A stretch of DNA of 47,496 nt, from assembly GCA_947647615.1 (NCBI GenBank), contig CANSKS010000018.1:1-47496 (forward strand), given 5' to 3'. The notes below the pieces were generated by a model that searched no databases, was not told where the DNA came from, and was given only the letters and a program-made list of their open reading frames with translations. This document shows positions 1,590 through 45,718 of this stretch, piece after piece. The translations under genes were made by a program, and so were the position numbers. Every line of letters begins with the position of its first letter. Position 1 is the stretch's first letter. The stretch is from an uncultured Neglectibacter sp. (GTDB lineage: Bacteria; Bacillota; Clostridia; Oscillospirales; Acutalibacteraceae).

Positions 1590-1800
1590 AATAATTACCC
1601 AGCCGGTCGTAATGCGCTTCTCAATAACCTGCTACAAATGTTGCAGGTGGGTGCCCTCCCTCAAGCTTCACGCTCCCTTCGTCCAACACCGGTCCAAGCC
1701 GGGCCGGGAGGTCTGCAATCCACAAGAGGAGAAAGGCTCCCTTTGTTTTGAGTGTAGGGTTATATGTGCGCAGTCCGCGAACCGGCCAGGTTAAAAAAAC
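1590..1800 (-). ncRNA. ssrS: Probable 6S RNA
   Basis: 6S RNA binds and sequesters the housekeeping RNA polymerase and serves as template for short pRNAs. On the minus strand this about 200-nt stretch folds end to end. A closing stem pairs ACCTGGCCGGT (plus 1781-1791) with ACCGGCTGGGT (plus 1597-1607), next to a GCGC/GCGC stem. The interior is a long imperfect hairpin. On the 3' side there is a CACC-[CTGCAACA...TGTAGCAGG]-TTA hairpin like the central-bubble hairpin of E. coli 6S RNA. The size, a promoter in the end of the upstream gene and a terminator at 1525-1568 fit. I assigned it by structure and general resemblance, not by a covariance model, and the strand is less certain than the family. 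Confidence 0.62.
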
Positions 1801-2100
1801 TCATTCTTCGTCTTCGTCGTAATAGGCTTCCTGGAAACGGTTTTCAAAAATATCGGCCAATTTATCCAGCAGCTCGTCGTTTTCTACTTCCTGCAGCAAT
1901 TCTTCCCCGTCTTCTTCTACAACTTCGAAAATATAATAGGTTTCTGCGTCGGAAGAAAGTTCCTCCGGGCTTTGTTGGGTAGGCACCAAGGCCATAAAAT
2001 GACCGTCATCGTTTTCCAACTCGTCAATAATCTCGAATTCGTGCTCTTGACCTTCGTCATCTACCAAAGTTAAAAGGTCAGCTTCATACTCCATATCCAT
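1801..2100 (-). CDS. DUF1292 family acidic protein
   Basis: A 99-residue, very acidic protein of the DUF1292 family (YrzB-like), common in Firmicutes and of unknown function. The conserved start of the family, a strand-rich segment with LVDDEGQEHEFEIIDELE-like sequence, lies at the N-terminus; the tail is almost all Glu/Asp (ends AYYDEDEE). I chose the ATG at plus 2098-2100 because AGGAAGGGG precedes it and the family begins there; the longer reading frame from 2166 lacks such a site. In many Firmicutes this gene sits in a yrzL-yrrK-yrzB cluster; here it stands alone and the 6S RNA follows. Confidence 0.85.
   Translation of the reverse strand: MDMEYEADLLTLVDDEGQEHEFEIIDELENDDGHFMALVPTQQSPEELSSDAETYYIFEVVEEDGEELLQEVENDELLDKLADIFENRFQEAYYDEDEE
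1819..1847 (-). promoter_or_regulatory. Possible 6S RNA promoter inside the DUF1292 gene
   Basis: On the minus strand TTGAAA (plus 1842-1847), a 17-nt spacer and TATTAC (plus 1819-1824). It would start transcription just before the closing stem of the proposed 6S RNA. The match is moderate and it lies within coding sequence. Confidence 0.4.
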
Positions 2101-2213
2101 GTTAAAAAACGCCCCTTCCTGAACGCTTGATTCTTTTAAGATAAAAGCAATATTAGGATCCGGCAATCACGAAATCCCGTACTCGAACCCCTCTAACGCA
2201 GTTCTTTACGATT

Positions 2214-2360: not shown

Positions 2361-2389
2361 TTGACAAAATGAAGAGGCGGTATTATAAT
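2361..2389 (+). promoter_or_regulatory. Consensus sigma-A promoter driving the candidate large ncRNA
   Basis: TTGACA (2361-2366), exactly 17 nt, TATAAT (2384-2389): a perfect match to both boxes, the strongest promoter in the window. No ribosome binding site with an open frame of useful length follows; the expected start is near 2396. Confidence 0.85.
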
Positions 2390-2395
2390 AAAGAC

Positions 2396-3007
2396 AACAC
2401 AGAAGAGGAAGAAAAATAAGTGGTCAAGAGGCTTCCTGCAAATATTCAGAAGTAGGGAAGAACAAAGACGTAGAACCTGGTAAGGGCTACAAAAAGGATT
2501 TTTGTTTGTACCGAAAATGTGGAAGTAGAGTTTTTCCGGTAATAAGAAATTGAAGTAAAGAATTAAGCAAAGTTACCGGGTTTTGTCTGAGAGTTATTTC
2601 CTTATGACTGGGAAAGGATTGTTGGGCAAGAAAGTTGGAGCAGGGAGCAAAAAAATTTACACTATTTTTTCTACTTGAGAAAGGCGGTGAGCCCAATGGG
2701 CCAAGAAGAGAGTTCAATATGTTCTACCTGTGGGCGAACTGCTCTGCGAGCAGTGGGAGTCTAAAAGAGTTTTCACAGAGGAACAAGCCTTAAAATTTAC
2801 TATATATGGAAGCGGAAAAGTAAAGATTGTTGATAACCGTATTTTAGAGCTTTAGAAAAGCTAAACTGGTCTCTAAAAAGAGATAAAATATAGAATCGGA
2901 AAAAGGTACAATCGCAACTTCATGCTGGGAAAAGGTATAAACCAATGTATTAGTAAATTCTTAAAACATATTTTAGGGTTTTCGAGAGAAATTTCGAAAA
3001 CCCTTTT
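2396..3007 (+). ncRNA. Candidate large structured non-coding RNA (about 610 nt)
   Basis: The stretch between a perfect promoter and a hairpin terminator has no plus-strand reading frame of gene size and is dense in short helices. These include AGGAAG/CTTCCT (2406-2411 with 2432-2437), CAAAAA/TTTTTG (2490-2495 with 2499-2504), TACCGAAAA with TTTTCCGGTA (about 2509-2517 with 2532-2541), a competing CCGGTAA/TTACCGG pair (2536-2542 with 2573-2579), GCCC/GGGC near 2691-2701, ACTGCT/AGCAGT near 2738-2754 and TCTCT/AGAGA near 2870-2883. The size is in the range of OLE and ROOL RNAs, but I cannot assign a class. No tmRNA, RNase P or SRP signature was seen. Confidence 0.55.
2975..3007 (+). terminator. 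Terminator of the candidate ncRNA
   Basis: An 11-bp perfect stem (AGGGTTTTCGA at 2975-2985 with TCGAAAACCCT at 2994-3004) ends in a short T-run (TTTTGCT). The T-run is short, so some read-through towards the HD gene is possible. Confidence 0.65.
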
Positions 3008-3136
3008 GCTATGCTTCTCATAGTTTACCGGAAGACCATACTCTTGGGCCGGTCGCGAGAGGCATTTTTAAAGCTTGCGTAAAACTATAGGTGAGAAAAT
3101 ACCATGTTTTTCTTATTGTTTTTGCCAAAAAACAGG

Positions 3137-3165
3137 TTGCTAGTGAAGAGATGTTGTGGTATAAT
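3137..3165 (+). promoter_or_regulatory. Sigma-A promoter for the HD-domain gene
   Basis: TTGCTA (3137-3142), 17 nt, TATAAT (3160-3165), about 75 nt before the start codon. Confidence 0.7.
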
Positions 3166-3246
3166 TTGTTTATCTTTAAGCTGCTCCTATGGCAGTGAAA
3201 TGAAAGCTACGGTAATTTTAGAAAAATAGTTTGGCAGGTGCGTCTA

Positions 3247-3762
3247 TTGGCAGGAAAACAAGCGAAAACTCTTTTTTACACTCTACAGTTTCGAAGATAC
3301 TTTCGAGAGTTGGTGAAAAATACCCGTTTGAGGCAGATGGAGGAATATCCTCAGCATGGGAATACCTCTCGGCTGCTGCACAGTGTAGCGGTAGCTTATT
3401 ACAGCTACCGGTTGGCGCTGTTTACCGGTCGCCGGTTTCATTGGAGTGAAATGGTACGGGGCGCCCTCCTCCACGATTACTTTTTCTACAATGCCCAAGA
3501 CGGGGACCCGGCCCACAAAGGTCATTGGAGCCGTCATCCGGCCATTGCTGCGGAAAACGCTGGGAAGGAGCTTTTACTTTCCGAAATCGAAGAGGATGTA
3601 ATTCGTGCCCATATGTTCCCTTTGACACCTCATCCCCCTCGTTTCCGGGAAGGGGCGGTGGTTTCCCTGGTAGATAAGGGCTGTTCGGTTTATGAGTTTT
3701 TCCGGCGGAACGCTCCCTATCGCAGGCTTCGGCGCGAAATTTTGGAAAACGCCATAAAGTAA
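3247..3762 (+). CDS. HD-domain phosphohydrolase-like protein
   Basis: A small (171-residue) cytoplasmic protein with the HD metal-dependent phosphohydrolase layout. A first histidine lies in LLHSVAVAYYS, the paired HD in LLHDYF, a later histidine in the segment SRHPAIAAENA, and a further one in VIRAHMFPL. Such proteins hydrolyse phosphoester or nucleotide substrates, but the substrate is not predictable. I prefer the TTG at 3247 because GGCAGG lies 6 nt before it; a GTG at 3238 is the alternative. The gene is monocistronic, with its own promoter and a terminator at 3793. Confidence 0.75.
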   Translation: MAGKQAKTLFYTLQFRRYFRELVKNTRLRQMEEYPQHGNTSRLLHSVAVAYYSYRLALFTGRRFHWSEMVRGALLHDYFFYNAQDGDPAHKGHWSRHPAIAAENAGKELLLSEIEEDVIRAHMFPLTPHPPRFREGAVVSLVDKGCSVYEFFRRNAPYRRLRREILENAIK

Positions 3763-3989: not shown

Positions 3990-5180
3990 ATGGCTCGTAA
4001 TTTGAAGAAAGAGTCCCGGGAATTTGAAGATCTTTCCAGCTATTCCTCTAAAAAAGCATACCAGAAGGGCCGGAAAAGGCATGGTGGAAAGCTGGTGCTG
4101 AAATCGATAGCCGCGTTTTTTTGCGTGCTCTTAATTTTGTTCGGCTCTCTTTTGATTTATGTTTCTACAGACCTTATTTCCGGCCTGCGTACCAATGCCA
4201 TCACAAAAGACAGTGCCGATTTAGGAATCGACACAGAAAAGATCGTATTGGATGACAAGGTGAAGAACATAGCACTTTTCGGAATAGATGCCCGGGACGA
4301 TTCCTTCCGGGGGCTTTCCGATATTATCATGATCCTTACCGTAGATAACAAGCACCGGAAATTAAAGCTGACCTCCATCTTAAGAGATTCCCTGGTGCGG
4401 GTAGAGGGAGATTCTTTAAGCGGAGATTATTTGGATTGGGATACCAAGATCACTCATGCCTACGGCTTTGGTGGTCCGGAGCTTGCGCTGCGTACCATAA
4501 ACCAGAACTTTGGCTTGGATATCGAAGACTATGCCACCATTAATTTTACGAATATGGCTAAGATTGTAGACGCTTTCGGCGGGGTAGAAATTGAGCTTTC
4601 CACTGCGGAAATGGAAGAGGTCAATAATAATTTATGGGATTTAAGTATTGAGATCCAGTTGAAAAAAGACCAGGACGAAGAAAACGGCGTTTCCGAAGGG
4701 AGGGAATATTCCGAAATCGTTCCCGAAGATTTCTTCAACGGCCAGGCTCCCGGTTTGCAGCTGCTCAACGGGAATCAGGCGGTAGCTTACGCCAGAATCC
4801 GTTACCTGGACGGCGGCGATGACGAACGCGCCCGCAGGCAGCAAAAGGTGTTTCGTGCCCTGGTATCTAAAATAAAAAATATCAGTTTCAGCGAATATCC
4901 CAACCTGATTCGGCAAATGGCTCCGCTGTGTGAAACCAGCCTGGAGATAGACGATCTCATTGGGCTTGCGCCCATTCTTACGACCGATTTTACTATGGAA
5001 GCGATCAATATTCCGGAATATGAGTATGAGAACCCCCGGGATTATATAGACTCGGAAGATATTTGGCATTACCAGTACGATCTCGCTCTGGCGGCGGAAC
5101 GGATGAGCAGCTTTATTTGGGAAGAAAATTCTCCCTACTGGGAAACCTACGGCAACACGGGAAAAGCCATGGGTGAATAG
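3990..5180 (+). CDS. LytR-CpsA-Psr (LCP) family protein 1
   Basis: A 396-residue membrane-anchored enzyme of the LCP family, which moves undecaprenyl-linked anionic polymers (teichoic acids, capsule, other glycans) onto peptidoglycan on the outer face of the membrane. A short basic cytoplasmic N-terminus is followed by one membrane segment (about residues 37-58). The LCP domain has typical signatures: LFGIDARD, SDIIMILTVD, KLTSILRDS, the ITHAYGFGG segment, and the arginine-rich VAYARIRYLDGG followed by RARRQQKV that binds the pyrophosphate. The start has a good AGGGAGG site. It is the first gene of an operon with a second LCP gene and a nucleotidyltransferase. Confidence 0.92.
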   Translation: MARNLKKESREFEDLSSYSSKKAYQKGRKRHGGKLVLKSIAAFFCVLLILFGSLLIYVSTDLISGLRTNAITKDSADLGIDTEKIVLDDKVKNIALFGIDARDDSFRGLSDIIMILTVDNKHRKLKLTSILRDSLVRVEGDSLSGDYLDWDTKITHAYGFGGPELALRTINQNFGLDIEDYATINFTNMAKIVDAFGGVEIELSTAEMEEVNNNLWDLSIEIQLKKDQDEENGVSEGREYSEIVPEDFFNGQAPGLQLLNGNQAVAYARIRYLDGGDDERARRQQKVFRALVSKIKNISFSEYPNLIRQMAPLCETSLEIDDLIGLAPILTTDFTMEAINIPEYEYENPRDYIDSEDIWHYQYDLALAAERMSSFIWEENSPYWETYGNTGKAMGE

Positions 5181-5239
5181 GCTTTTCTCGAAAAATGGGG
5201 AGTTGAGGGTTTGGGGAAGCAAAAAATTTGGAGGCAGAA

Positions 5240-6439
5240 ATGGACCGCAGAAGTACAAAGGGGGCTCATCAAGCGCCACGGCAGCGGCCGCGCAGAGAGC
5301 CTTTAAACGATCATTACTATTATCAGGAGCCGCCGCGTAGCAGTCGCCAGGGCACAGCTGGCCGCGGCGACAGTTTTGAAGATATTTCCAGCTATTCCTC
5401 TCATGCCCATCGAAGCCGGCAAAGAGATCAAAGGGACTTCCAGCGAAAAAAGAAAAAAAGGCATACCGGGTTAATCGCGGCTTGCGTGTTTTTAGTCTTG
5501 ATCGGGGCGGGGGTTTGGTATGTATTCGGCTACCTGCTTCATGGACTTACCATTAATGAGCTGTCGAGAGACAATCTGGGAATTCATGCCGAAGCTACCA
5601 CAAATGCCGACATAAAAAACATTGCGCTGTTTGGGTTGGATGCCCGAGAAAACGTGAGTGAGGGCCGGTCGGACGCCCTTATGATTCTGACGATAGACAA
5701 TAAGCACAAAAAATTGAAGCTTACTTCTATTTTACGGGATTCTTGCGTGTGGATCGAAGATTATGGAGAAGATAAAATCACCCATGCCTATGCATATGGC
5801 GGGCCGGAGTTGGCCGTGAAGACCTTGAACCAGAACTTCCGGTTGGATATTGAAGACTACGCCACCGTGAACTTTATTCAAATGGCAGAAATTGTGGATG
5901 CTTTTGGCGGCACACGGGTAACGATTTCTTATGACGAGATGAACGAGATCAACCGGAATCTGGCCATGCAGCAGTCGGAATCTTATGATGCCGATATTTC
6001 CGAGGCCGATTATATGTACGAAGACGGCGATGTGCTGTTGAATGGAAATCAGGCGGTGGCTTATGCCAGAATCCGTTACTTAGACGGGGACGATGTGCGT
6101 GCTTCCCGGCAACAAAATGTGCTGAAGGGCTTGGTGGAGCAGTTAAAAACTGTAAGTAAGCTTCAATACCCTGAGCTGATCCGAACCGTGGCCCCCATGT
6201 GCACAACTTCCCTGAATATCCCAGACATGTTGGGACTTACTCCCATTTTACTTTCCGATTTCACCATGGAAACCCTTTCTGTTCCAGGCGAAGAAGAAGG
6301 GGCGGAATCGGGGTATACAGAGGAAGGAGCTTGGGTTTATTTGTACGACCTGGAGGAAGCTGCGCAGCATATTAGCCGATTTATTTATGAAGAAGATTCC
6401 CCCTACTACTATTCCGAATCCCCGGAGGAAGAGGGCTGA
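5240..6439 (+). CDS. LytR-CpsA-Psr (LCP) family protein 2
   Basis: A 399-residue paralogue of the preceding protein. A longer, basic and proline/arginine-rich cytoplasmic N-terminus (about 75 residues, with a shared SFEDISSYSS motif matching EFEDLSSYSS in protein 1) leads to one membrane segment and the LCP domain (LFGLDARE, SDALMILTID, KLTSILRDS, VAYARIRYLDGDD, RASRQQNV). I chose the ATG at 5240 because GGAGG lies 5 nt upstream; a TTG at 5228 overlaps that site. The gap to LCP1 is 59 nt, so the two are co-transcribed and probably arose by tandem duplication. Confidence 0.92.
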   Translation: MDRRSTKGAHQAPRQRPRREPLNDHYYYQEPPRSSRQGTAGRGDSFEDISSYSSHAHRSRQRDQRDFQRKKKKRHTGLIAACVFLVLIGAGVWYVFGYLLHGLTINELSRDNLGIHAEATTNADIKNIALFGLDARENVSEGRSDALMILTIDNKHKKLKLTSILRDSCVWIEDYGEDKITHAYAYGGPELAVKTLNQNFRLDIEDYATVNFIQMAEIVDAFGGTRVTISYDEMNEINRNLAMQQSESYDADISEADYMYEDGDVLLNGNQAVAYARIRYLDGDDVRASRQQNVLKGLVEQLKTVSKLQYPELIRTVAPMCTTSLNIPDMLGLTPILLSDFTMETLSVPGEEEGAESGYTEEGAWVYLYDLEEAAQHISRFIYEEDSPYYYSESPEEEG

Positions 6440-43721: not shown

Positions 43722-45380
43722 TTGTTATCTCAACTGTTTATCAAAAATATCGCAGTTATTGAACAGGCTTCGATCGATCTGGAACATGGGTTTACGGTGT
43801 TGACCGGCGAAACCGGTGCGGGGAAATCCATTATTATCGACGCGATCCATGCAGTACTGGGGGAACGCACCTCAAAGGAGCTGATCCGGACTGGAGCAAA
43901 AAACGCCTCTGTCTCTGCCTTGTTCACTTCTTTGTCGCCGGAAATTCTGGAGATTTTAGAAGAACTTTCCGTACCTTTGGAAGAGGATAATTCCCTTTTA
44001 ATTCAGCGAGAAATAAAAAGCGAGGGGAAGTCCTTGTGCAAATTGAATGGTGCTCCGGCAACGGTGTCTATGTTAAAACAGCTTGCACCTTTGCTTTTGA
44101 ACATCCATGGCCAGCACGAAAGCTATGAATTGCTTTCGCCGGAAATTCACATGACTTACCTTGACAGGTTTGGGGAATTGGAAGATCTGCTTTTACAATA
44201 CCAAAGCTCTTACCGTCGCTTACGGGAGATCAGGCAGCAGCTGGGGGCCCTGCAGATGGATGAGGGGGAAAAAGCGCGGCGGCTGGACCTGCTCCGGTAC
44301 CAGGTGGAAGAAATTCAAAGCGCTAATTTAAAGCCTGGAGAACAGGAGGCCCTTATTCAAGAAAGGGATATCATTCGCAACAGCGAAAAAATTTCTGTTT
44401 CGGTGGAGCTTGTAAAGGCCCTCCTTTCCGGAGATGAAAATAGCCTCGGGCTTTTATCGGGGTTATCGCAAGCTACGGAGGAAATAGAAAAGAACGGCCA
44501 GTTCCTTTCTGGCCTTCAAGCGGTGGCGCAGAAACTGCGGGAAGCAGGCTTCCTTTTGGAAGACGCCGATCAAATGCTTCGGGATATCTCGGTAGAATTT
44601 GACCCGGAACGGCTGGAAATGATTGAAGAACGGTTAGACCTGATTTACCGGCTTTCCTTGAAATACGGCGGCAGTGAAGAGGAAATTTTGCAATTTTTAG
44701 AAGACGCCCAGGTTTCTTTGAAGAAAATAGAATTTTCAGAAGAAGAGCGTGGGGCTTTGGAAGCCGGCTATGAGGCGGAGAAGCAAAAGGCGATTTCCCT
44801 GGCCCGGGAGCTTTCCGCCAAACGGAAGGCTGTTTCCCAGGAGTTTTCCAAAAGGGTGAAAAAGGAACTGAACTTTTTGAATATGCCGGGAATGGAGTTT
44901 TTGCTGGAAATTGAGCGGGTACCTCTTTACAACATGGGCTGCGATAAGGTGCAGTTTTTGATTTCCGCCAACAAGGGAGAACCTGCGAAACCCCTTTCCA
45001 AAATCGCTTCTGGTGGAGAGCTTTCCCGAATTATGCTGGCCATTAAAACGGTGCTTTCCGGAAAAGATCGGGTAGATACTCTGATCTTCGACGAAGTGGA
45101 TACCGGGATCAGCGGGGAGGCCGCCAATAAGGTGGGGTTAAAGCTGGAGGAGGCTTCCAGGGACCGGCAGGTCCTTTGTATTACCCACTTGGCCCAGATC
45201 GCGGCCTTGGCAGACCATCATCTGCGCATACAAAAGCATGTGAAAAATGGGCGCACCTTCACTCAGGTGGAGCCCTTGGACCTGGAAGGCCGGAAACAGG
45301 AGCTGGCCCGGATTATCGGCGGAGCGTCTATTACAGAACTGCAGCTAAAAATGGCGGAAGAAATGCTTAAGAAGGCTTGA
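43722..45380 (+). CDS. recN: DNA repair protein RecN
   Basis: A 552-residue SMC-like ATPase of double-strand break repair. Walker A GETGAGKSIIIDA at about residues 28-40, a coiled-coil middle (about 150-380), then the ABC signature IASGGELSRIMLAIK and Walker B LIFDEVDTGISG. Full length. TTG start, 6 nt after the argR stop, with a weak AGGTGAT site. The end contains the -35 box of the tyrS promoter. Confidence 0.94.
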   Translation: MLSQLFIKNIAVIEQASIDLEHGFTVLTGETGAGKSIIIDAIHAVLGERTSKELIRTGAKNASVSALFTSLSPEILEILEELSVPLEEDNSLLIQREIKSEGKSLCKLNGAPATVSMLKQLAPLLLNIHGQHESYELLSPEIHMTYLDRFGELEDLLLQYQSSYRRLREIRQQLGALQMDEGEKARRLDLLRYQVEEIQSANLKPGEQEALIQERDIIRNSEKISVSVELVKALLSGDENSLGLLSGLSQATEEIEKNGQFLSGLQAVAQKLREAGFLLEDADQMLRDISVEFDPERLEMIEERLDLIYRLSLKYGGSEEEILQFLEDAQVSLKKIEFSEEERGALEAGYEAEKQKAISLARELSAKRKAVSQEFSKRVKKELNFLNMPGMEFLLEIERVPLYNMGCDKVQFLISANKGEPAKPLSKIASGGELSRIMLAIKTVLSGKDRVDTLIFDEVDTGISGEAANKVGLKLEEASRDRQVLCITHLAQIAALADHHLRIQKHVKNGRTFTQVEPLDLEGRKQELARIIGGASITELQLKMAEEMLKKA

Positions 45381-45410: not shown

Positions 45411-45718
45411 TCAACAGCGATGACGAAATAAGTAGGCGTTGTATTCTGGCACAGAGAGCCCGCGGTTGGTGGAAGCGGGGGACAGAGCAGCGGTGAAGTT
45501 ACCTTTCTGAGCTGCCGTTTTGAAAGCTTTCACGGCAAGTAGGGACGGCCGTATGGCAGGCGTTATTCTGCAAGGGCATAACAAGGGTAGGTTTGGCCTG
45601 AGTAATTCTGCCGGGCTCTTTTGTAGTGCTTGATGAGGCCACAGCCGTAAGGCTGAGGTAAATTGAGGTGGTACCGCGGCATTTTGTCGCCCTCTGTGTG
45701 AACAGGGGGCGTTTTTTT
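45411..45718 (+). promoter_or_regulatory. Tyrosine-type T-box leader
   Basis: A tRNA-sensing riboswitch. Stem I begins CAGCGATGACGAAATAAGTA (GA/kink-turn motif and AGTA bulge) and closes with TTCTGAGCTG; a TAC codon at 45500-45502 just before that close is the likely tyrosine specifier. The T-box bulge is GAGGTGGTACCGCGG (45665-45679), next to the terminator at 45688. Uncharged tRNA-Tyr would stabilise the antiterminator and allow tyrS expression. Confidence 0.92.
45688..45718 (+). terminator. T-box attenuator terminator
   Basis: CGCCCTCTGT (45688-45697) pairs with ACAGGGGGCG (45702-45711, one G-U pair), followed by seven Ts. It is the off-state hairpin of the tyrS T-box. Confidence 0.9.

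Follow-up and report, generated by a model that had tools for sequence, protein, structure and literature searches.

The window, i.e. the whole stretch of 47,496 nucleotides analysed from an uncultured Neglectibacter sp., carries near its start a predicted structured RNA (hereafter the element) between a divergent DUF1292 gene and a gene on its own strand. The features recognised at the locus were:

1592–1795, minus strand: neighbouring 6S RNA gene, outside the element (RF00013, 59.5 bits; cut-off 46.4)
1801–2166, minus strand: neighbouring DUF1292 protein gene (PF06949), divergent from the element
2361–2389, plus strand: sigma-70-type promoter TTGACA-17-TATAAT, with the -35 at 2361–2366 and the -10 at 2384–2389
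2396–3007, plus strand: predicted transcript of about 609 nt, based on promoter, terminator and fold, its start placed from the promoter
2678–2694, plus strand: extended Shine-Dalgarno sequence of ORF1, AGAAAGGCGGTGAGCCC
2696–2764, plus strand: ORF1, 22 aa, MGQEESSICSTCGRTALRAVGV, a short ORF conserved in the genus (stop codon within the coordinates)
2727–2743, plus strand: segment inside ORF1 that could fold back onto the ribosome-binding site (RBS; duplex -23.7 kcal/mol)
2816–2927, plus strand: 3' structured domain, with covariation in the genus
2927–2953, plus strand: mini-ORF read in the sequence, with the Shine-Dalgarno-like GGGAAAAGG at 2927–2935 and AUG UAU UAG at 2945–2953
2975–3004, plus strand: intrinsic terminator, a stem-loop of 13 pairs followed by a T-run
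3238–3762, plus strand: next gene, labelled "HD" in the first-pass annotation

The 6S RNA gene and the DUF1292 gene, both named beforehand as neighbours, were recovered by their family models, but the "HD" label of the next gene found no Pfam match at E 0.001. A promoter-like site at 3137–3165 lies ahead of this gene. 6S RNA was present in all 14 genus loci scanned, and DUF1292 in 16 of the 20 genus loci fetched. Scanning of 20 loci from other genera and families placed 6S RNA also inside four loci of other genera (L128, L129, L133 and L145), and the 6S neighbourhood therefore predates the genus.

The promoter had been called the best of the window, and it was indeed the sole 12/12 match (spacer 16–18) on both strands of the whole window, three sites matching at 11/12. 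An A/T-rich stretch precedes it. Also the terminator was present with stem and T-run, the stem having 13 pairs instead of the 11 bp given earlier. The plus strand of 2396–3010 folded to -161.6 kcal/mol vs -135.9 kcal/mol for shuffled sequences (z -5.2), beating 20 of 20 shuffles, and the minus strand of the same stretch gave z -2.7. The competing helices proposed for the arm at 2536–2541 (CCGGTA) have, on paper, possible partners in TACCG at 2509 and TACCGG at 2574. ORFs of at least 30 aa inside the stretch measured 31, 52, 41 and 33 aa on the plus strand and 76 and 33 aa on the minus strand. The first-pass annotation had seen no plausible coding frame here, which holds in so far as the ORF list has no plus-strand ORF of at least 60 aa, but it overlooked the conserved 22-codon ORF1 and the mini-ORF, both of which fall under the 30-aa limit of that list.

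No known Rfam family, including OLE, ROOL and GOLLD, accounts for the element. Searches of Rfam 15 with the window (gathering score) and with the element (E up to 10) gave no match to it, as the earlier reading of an undescribed element had supposed, and the same library detected only 6S RNA and tRNA in 14 loci of the genus and in 20 from other genera or families. The RF00013 match belongs to the neighbour and not to the element, which speaks against identity with 6S RNA, and a canonical tmRNA was found separately at G000:C16:1124-1505 (163 bits, over the cut-off), the element itself having no tmRNA match. A T-box leader (RF00230, 101.6 bits) was detected far from the element, at 45411–45697 on the plus strand, with an 11/12 promoter at 45377.

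Core homologues were detected in 17 of the 20 same-genus loci fetched, each locus being the stretch before the orthologue of the next gene, and with the window and three from a scan of genome contigs they made up a set of 21 homologues. They usually lay beside 6S RNA, flanked by DUF1292 and the same next gene. For L091, L102 and L105 the next gene stood in another context and the core was found elsewhere in the genomes (G011, G021 and G027). Blastn of the whole element produced short matches only, among relatives, and those in two same-genus genomes lay just upstream of the next-gene orthologue. An exact pattern matched 19 stretches of the genome-contig collection, of which two (Streptomyces and Phaeodactylibacter) were apparent chance hits and 17 had record titles naming Acutalibacter, Neglectibacter, "Neglecta" or unclassified Oscillospiraceae, Clostridia, Clostridiaceae, Firmicutes or bacterium. 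It is these titles that suggest Acutalibacter as the name of the genus. Another pattern, around 2683–2702, with up to three mismatches gave scattered matches. Model R2, with 20 training rows from the genus itself, matched 23 of the 29 genus genomes, G025 weakly (E 0.006).

The transcript boundaries recurred in these relatives. Outside the window, 17 of the 20 homologues had the exact TTGACA-17-TATAAT promoter and two had TATACT as the -10; in L113 no promoter of this type was found. At the 18 genus loci examined the predicted RNA measured 421–1241 nt, and a terminator-like site stood at its end in all of them.

The first-pass annotation had proposed looking for covariation among relatives and would have taken its absence as a refutation, but covariation was found in the 3' domain. 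In the model-fitted alignment the covariation score was 0.299 vs 0.181 in shuffles (0/500 as high) and at most 0.159 in slid versions, and in a MAFFT alignment 0.273 vs 0.184 and 0.136, respectively; the shuffles keep no relatedness among the sequences, and these scores, like the RBS-pairing and stop-codon statistics below, are uncorrected for shared ancestry. Pairing was possible in 83.4% of the cells of the model-fitted alignment, and in 65% for one inner helix. Pairs with double changes were not above shuffles (102/500 as high). The 3' domain model had no match in 57 loci from outside the genus. The predicted RNA is, judged by this comparison of relatives, a real conserved RNA across the genus.

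The window copy is a divergent member of this RNA family, since a model built without the window finds in it solely the 3' domain, at 2816–2927, and only at E 0.3. Nearer the 5' end, a motif GGAAGUA...GAAAAC was present in 19 of 20 loci, flanked by ACC/GGU, GCC/GGC, GCC/GGU, GUC/GGC or AUC/GGU; in L088, L090 and L092 the second flank that was expected is missing. This motif was not found in the window copy.

The most conserved stretch in relatives was GAAAGGCGGGUGAGUCC, followed by one base and the start codon, and its window counterpart is AGAAAGGCGGUGAGCCC-A-AUG (2678–2698). The Shine-Dalgarno sequence of ORF1 is almost fully complementary to the 16S 3' tail; the predicted energy of this pairing is -21.5 kcal/mol, vs -13.2 for the site of the LytR-family gene at 3990. 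The 16S 3' end GCTGGATCACCTCCTTTCT was found in two of 11 genomes searched, both of the same genus, but not in the window's own assembly. The LytR-family gene (3990–5180) and the one after it (5228–6439), both on the plus strand, are two adjacent, similar-looking LytR-CpsA-Psr-type genes, Pfam having been applied to the first.

ORF1 counterparts at the 21 genus loci, unselected for length, had 15–23 codons after the start, which was ATG in 18, TTG in one and GTG in one of 20 loci. L099, near-identical to L101, was left out of the start-codon comparison and also of the conserved-stretch and RBS-exchange comparisons. Differences among the ORF1 sequences peaked at third codon positions (690 vs 454 and 397), and the peptides shared an N-terminal pattern M-[DGEV]-x-x-E-x-Q. 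Their C-terminal halves varied widely, and the frame in which the RNA hairpin lying there is read differs. Relatives thus had a coding gene, which had been named as evidence against an RNA, only in the form of this short ORF. The family rows of the RBS-pairing comparison were chosen for an ORF of 14–32 codons, and the fair family figure is therefore the 21 of 28 first units with 15–30 codons, vs a background of 20%.

The segment inside ORF1 could pair with the RBS through UGGGC (2731–2735) with GCCCA (2691–2695), ACUGCU (2738–2743) with GGCGGU (2683–2688) and CC (2727–2728) with GG (2698–2699). The free fold of 2640–2775 did not itself choose this pairing, and it picked neither the pairing nor the hairpin described below cleanly. 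The mean energies (kcal/mol) were -20.9 in the genus (21 loci), -15.1 and -16.0 in the family (21 and 8) and -17.7 in a second family, f13 (14, counted without L177, L182 and L166, the last an ordinary gene). Upstream and downstream controls were weaker in all four groups, with means from -7.9 to -11.1. Against shuffled targets, p-values below 0.05 were obtained for 19 of 21 genus loci, 8 of 21 and 6 of 8 family loci, and 11 of 14 f13 loci, uncorrected for shared ancestry.

When RBSs were exchanged among 57 loci, the mean was -14.63 with the own RBS and -13.44 with permuted ones, and 0 of 2000 permutations were as good. For 18 of the 26 non-consensus RBSs, pairing with the own ORF was stronger than that of the consensus; for the other eight it was not, most clearly in L090, L092 and L270. 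For the window ORF1 no other RBS variant paired better than its own. Since the anti-Shine-Dalgarno-like segment could pair with the ORF1 site, initiation and pairing should be mutually exclusive. In the genus the ORF1 segment can, as read from the sequences, form also a hairpin of its own, and the RBS pairing and the hairpin would therefore compete, which we propose as a switch. A pseudoknot between the loop of the ORF1 hairpin and the RBS was rejected as the main structure, the loop looking to us too short to bridge, and the consensus fold of the alignment contained a long RBS helix instead. The sequence comparison gave signatures of both traits that would define a dual-function RNA, a translated ORF and an RNA-level function.

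The Shine-Dalgarno sequence of the window mini-ORF is predicted to pair weakly with the 16S tail (-7.6 kcal/mol). Most genus RNAs have at this place a 3' box, GGAAAAGG...CCAAUG, with a stop soon after, often as AUG-UAC-UAG or AUG-UAC-UAA; among the genus loci, L093 and L095 had no box. The box stopped within two sense codons in 13 of 19 cases, the other six not being mini-ORFs; this count combines pattern matches with by-eye reading of the window, L096, L099, L101 and L104, and pattern matches alone gave 10 of 14.

Other genera of the family were sampled with 60 DUF1292-divergent stretches taken, mostly as the best-scoring, from 133 DUF1292 genomes, the own genus being left out. A promoter was found by a set rule in 42 of the 60 and in none of the other 18. 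The 42 promoter-bearing stretches included 46 initiation units; with the motif reversed the count was 2, and shuffles gave about 3. Fourteen of the 42 were without a unit, and loci with a unit numbered 28–29, depending on the range searched. Distal units stopped within two sense codons in 15 of 18 cases vs 13.8% of the other NTG triplets of the same stretches (p-value 6E-11, uncorrected for shared ancestry). The codon between start and stop varies, and the stop is therefore the kept feature of the mini-ORFs. A run of start-stop units was seen by eye in L145.

In the family, model R2 matched 26 of 200 genomes at E 0.1, some of the weaker matches plainly not being the element. The pattern of the initiation unit was present in 89 of 394 genomes of the order Oscillospirales vs 7 for the reversed control; some matches are ordinary gene starts (L160, L166 and L285), so the figure is not a count of RNAs. 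A search of the class Clostridia matched 20 of 373 genomes outside the order vs 9 for the reversed control, and 7 of 18 inside it. The predicted initiation unit is thus enriched across Oscillospirales and near control level elsewhere in Clostridia. RNAs of f13 have an ORF1 such as MVTEETSYSFAGLAAAL. In L166, also of f13, GAAAGGGGTGAGTCCC-ATG starts from 1501 onwards an ordinary gene with a product that by eye is HD-like.

The undescribed element of the first-pass annotation stands as an independent structured RNA with promoter, terminator and covariation beside 6S RNA, but not as a purely non-coding one, because its most conserved module is a translation initiation site with a short ORF, and start-stop mini-ORFs are present as well. 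The predicted RNA combines its own promoter and terminator, a covarying 3' domain, an extended Shine-Dalgarno sequence driving ORF1, an internal anti-Shine-Dalgarno-like segment and sites of near-immediate stop. This suggests an independent ribosome-engaging RNA, either a sensor or decoy of free 30S subunits or a regulator with ribosome landing sites. It is quite possible, and our tentative reading, that the work of this independently transcribed, conserved and structured RNA involves binding ribosomes.

The ORF1 site would be contested between free 30S subunits and the internal anti-RBS, and the RNA would therefore sense or buffer free ribosomes. Plentiful ribosomes would load on ORF1 and the mini-ORFs and terminate immediately, so that the RNA stays occupied, and with scarce ribosomes the RNA would close on itself. 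The peptides, poorly conserved in their C-terminal halves, would not be what matters; the effect would lie in whether the RNA is occupied or folded, acting through how stable it is or how accessible to a partner. The element would then be for ribosomes approximately what the neighbouring 6S RNA is for RNA polymerase. The adjacency of the two need not mean a shared function. Doubtful, in our judgement, is the wider proposal of an Oscillospirales RNA class, beside 6S RNA in Acutalibacteraceae, that would measure or buffer free ribosomes by strong initiation sites with immediate stops and an anti-Shine-Dalgarno competitor, as a translational counterpart of 6S RNA. If ribosomes load on the sites, the RNA would exemplify a design that relies on starting and ending translation and not on elongation, and would offer a handle on the ribosome-supply balance in common gut bacteria. 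Cultured commensals, e.g. Neglectibacter timonensis, would allow cheap testing.

The same features could also belong to a trans-acting dual-function regulatory RNA, in which the anti-Shine-Dalgarno-like loop (GGACUCAC in relatives) would pair with the ribosome-binding sites of mRNAs, and ORF1 and the mini-ORFs would protect the RNA from RNases in the manner of STAB-SD sites and control exposure of the loop. We think this possible, if on the unlikely side. The conserved loop is complementary to a Shine-Dalgarno-type sequence, related units stand before other genes in the order, and STAB-SD sites stabilise RNA via 30S binding (PMC4113751); however, STAB-SD acts near the 5' end, and the site lies 200–700 nt from the promoter in the window and most relatives. 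That the element acts in cis on the downstream gene, as a leader or attenuator, is very improbable, because a terminator-like site ended the RNA at 18 of 18 genus loci and none of the 60 family stretches, of which three were shorter than 1 kb, was found to contain the next gene; a riboswitch or uORF motif was rejected on the same grounds. Three genus genomes have the next gene in another context, and promoter-like sites (up to three mismatches, a lax rule) precede it at 16 of 18 genus loci. In favour of a leader are the short ORF, the alternative pairings and the terminator ahead of a same-strand gene.

If the element were instead a short mRNA, with the ORF1 peptide as functional product and the rest as structured untranslated region, the kept open frame, the alternative start codons, the third-position excess and the N-terminal pattern would all follow. 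The divergent C-terminal halves with a hairpin read in different frames speak against it, the mini-ORFs would be left unexplained, and we regard it as improbable. That the window species carries a decaying, non-functional copy is highly improbable: the leave-one-out score is weak and no 5' motif is recognisable, but a perfect promoter, the terminator, the site, ORF1 and the mini-ORF are kept, and the RBS pairing has been rebuilt with other letters.

Large structured RNAs of unknown role are few in bacteria. OLE, ROOL and GOLLD are in the same size class as the element and equally obscure in biochemical role, and the element has no Rfam 15 match to them. The dual-function RNAs RNAIII, SgrS and SR1 combine a regulatory RNA with a short ORF, which the regulatory-looking element resembles; we know of no repeated start-stop units in RNAs of that type, nor, among large structured bacterial RNAs of unknown role, of any with repeated Shine-Dalgarno, start and stop units as a conserved feature. 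The minigenes of lambda bar consist of a Shine-Dalgarno sequence, AUG, one sense codon and a stop, and are phage sequences studied when overexpressed. The mini-ORFs resemble these, but would here be conserved parts of a chromosomal structured RNA. tmRNA shares with the element a structured RNA with a short internal ORF and is encoded separately in the genome; 6S RNA, also encoded separately, is a neighbour and binds the transcription machinery.

STAB-SD sites (e.g. that of cry3A mRNA) lie near the 5' end of the mRNA and stabilise the RNA through 30S binding (PMC4113751). The likeness would be a Shine-Dalgarno sequence serving a purpose other than protein, with 30S binding known in STAB-SD (PMC4113751). 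The same text describes STAB-SD without a translation start, whereas the element has an internal site, a start codon, a short ORF and repeats with immediate stops (PMC4113751). Membership in STAB-SD was rejected, the genus site lying 205–703 nt after the promoter start and not close to the 5' end. The uORF motifs odc1 and fthC likewise hold a short ORF within a structured motif, a helix of which takes in the ribosome-binding site (PMC8632094, PMC11109978), but they precede a constant gene which they would be expected to regulate, and no constant gene was found downstream of the element. A literature search found no publication on this RNA. The main texts of the surveys PMC8040213, PMC11109978 and PMC8632094 include neither Faecalibacterium nor Ruminococc-, and those of PMC8040213 and PMC11109978 no Oscillospir-; their supplements might list a candidate.

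Another RNA type, with an GAAAGGGTGAGTCC-ATG unit at or near the 5' end, was seen in L277, L279, L280, L281, L287, L288 and L294 (families f20, f14, f19 and f21). The short ORF at this unit had two sense codons after the start in L277, L280, L287, L288 and L294, three in L279 and seven in L281. In these RNAs a few hundred nucleotides follow the unit, and then an ORF of 9–10 residues like MLDIKTENK, in which the leucine codon varies synonymously and the stop abuts a terminator hairpin. These 5'-end RNAs are nearer to STAB-SD than the element is. In L278, L282, L286, L289, L293 and L295 the initiation unit begins short upstream ORFs before genes for products that by eye look secreted.
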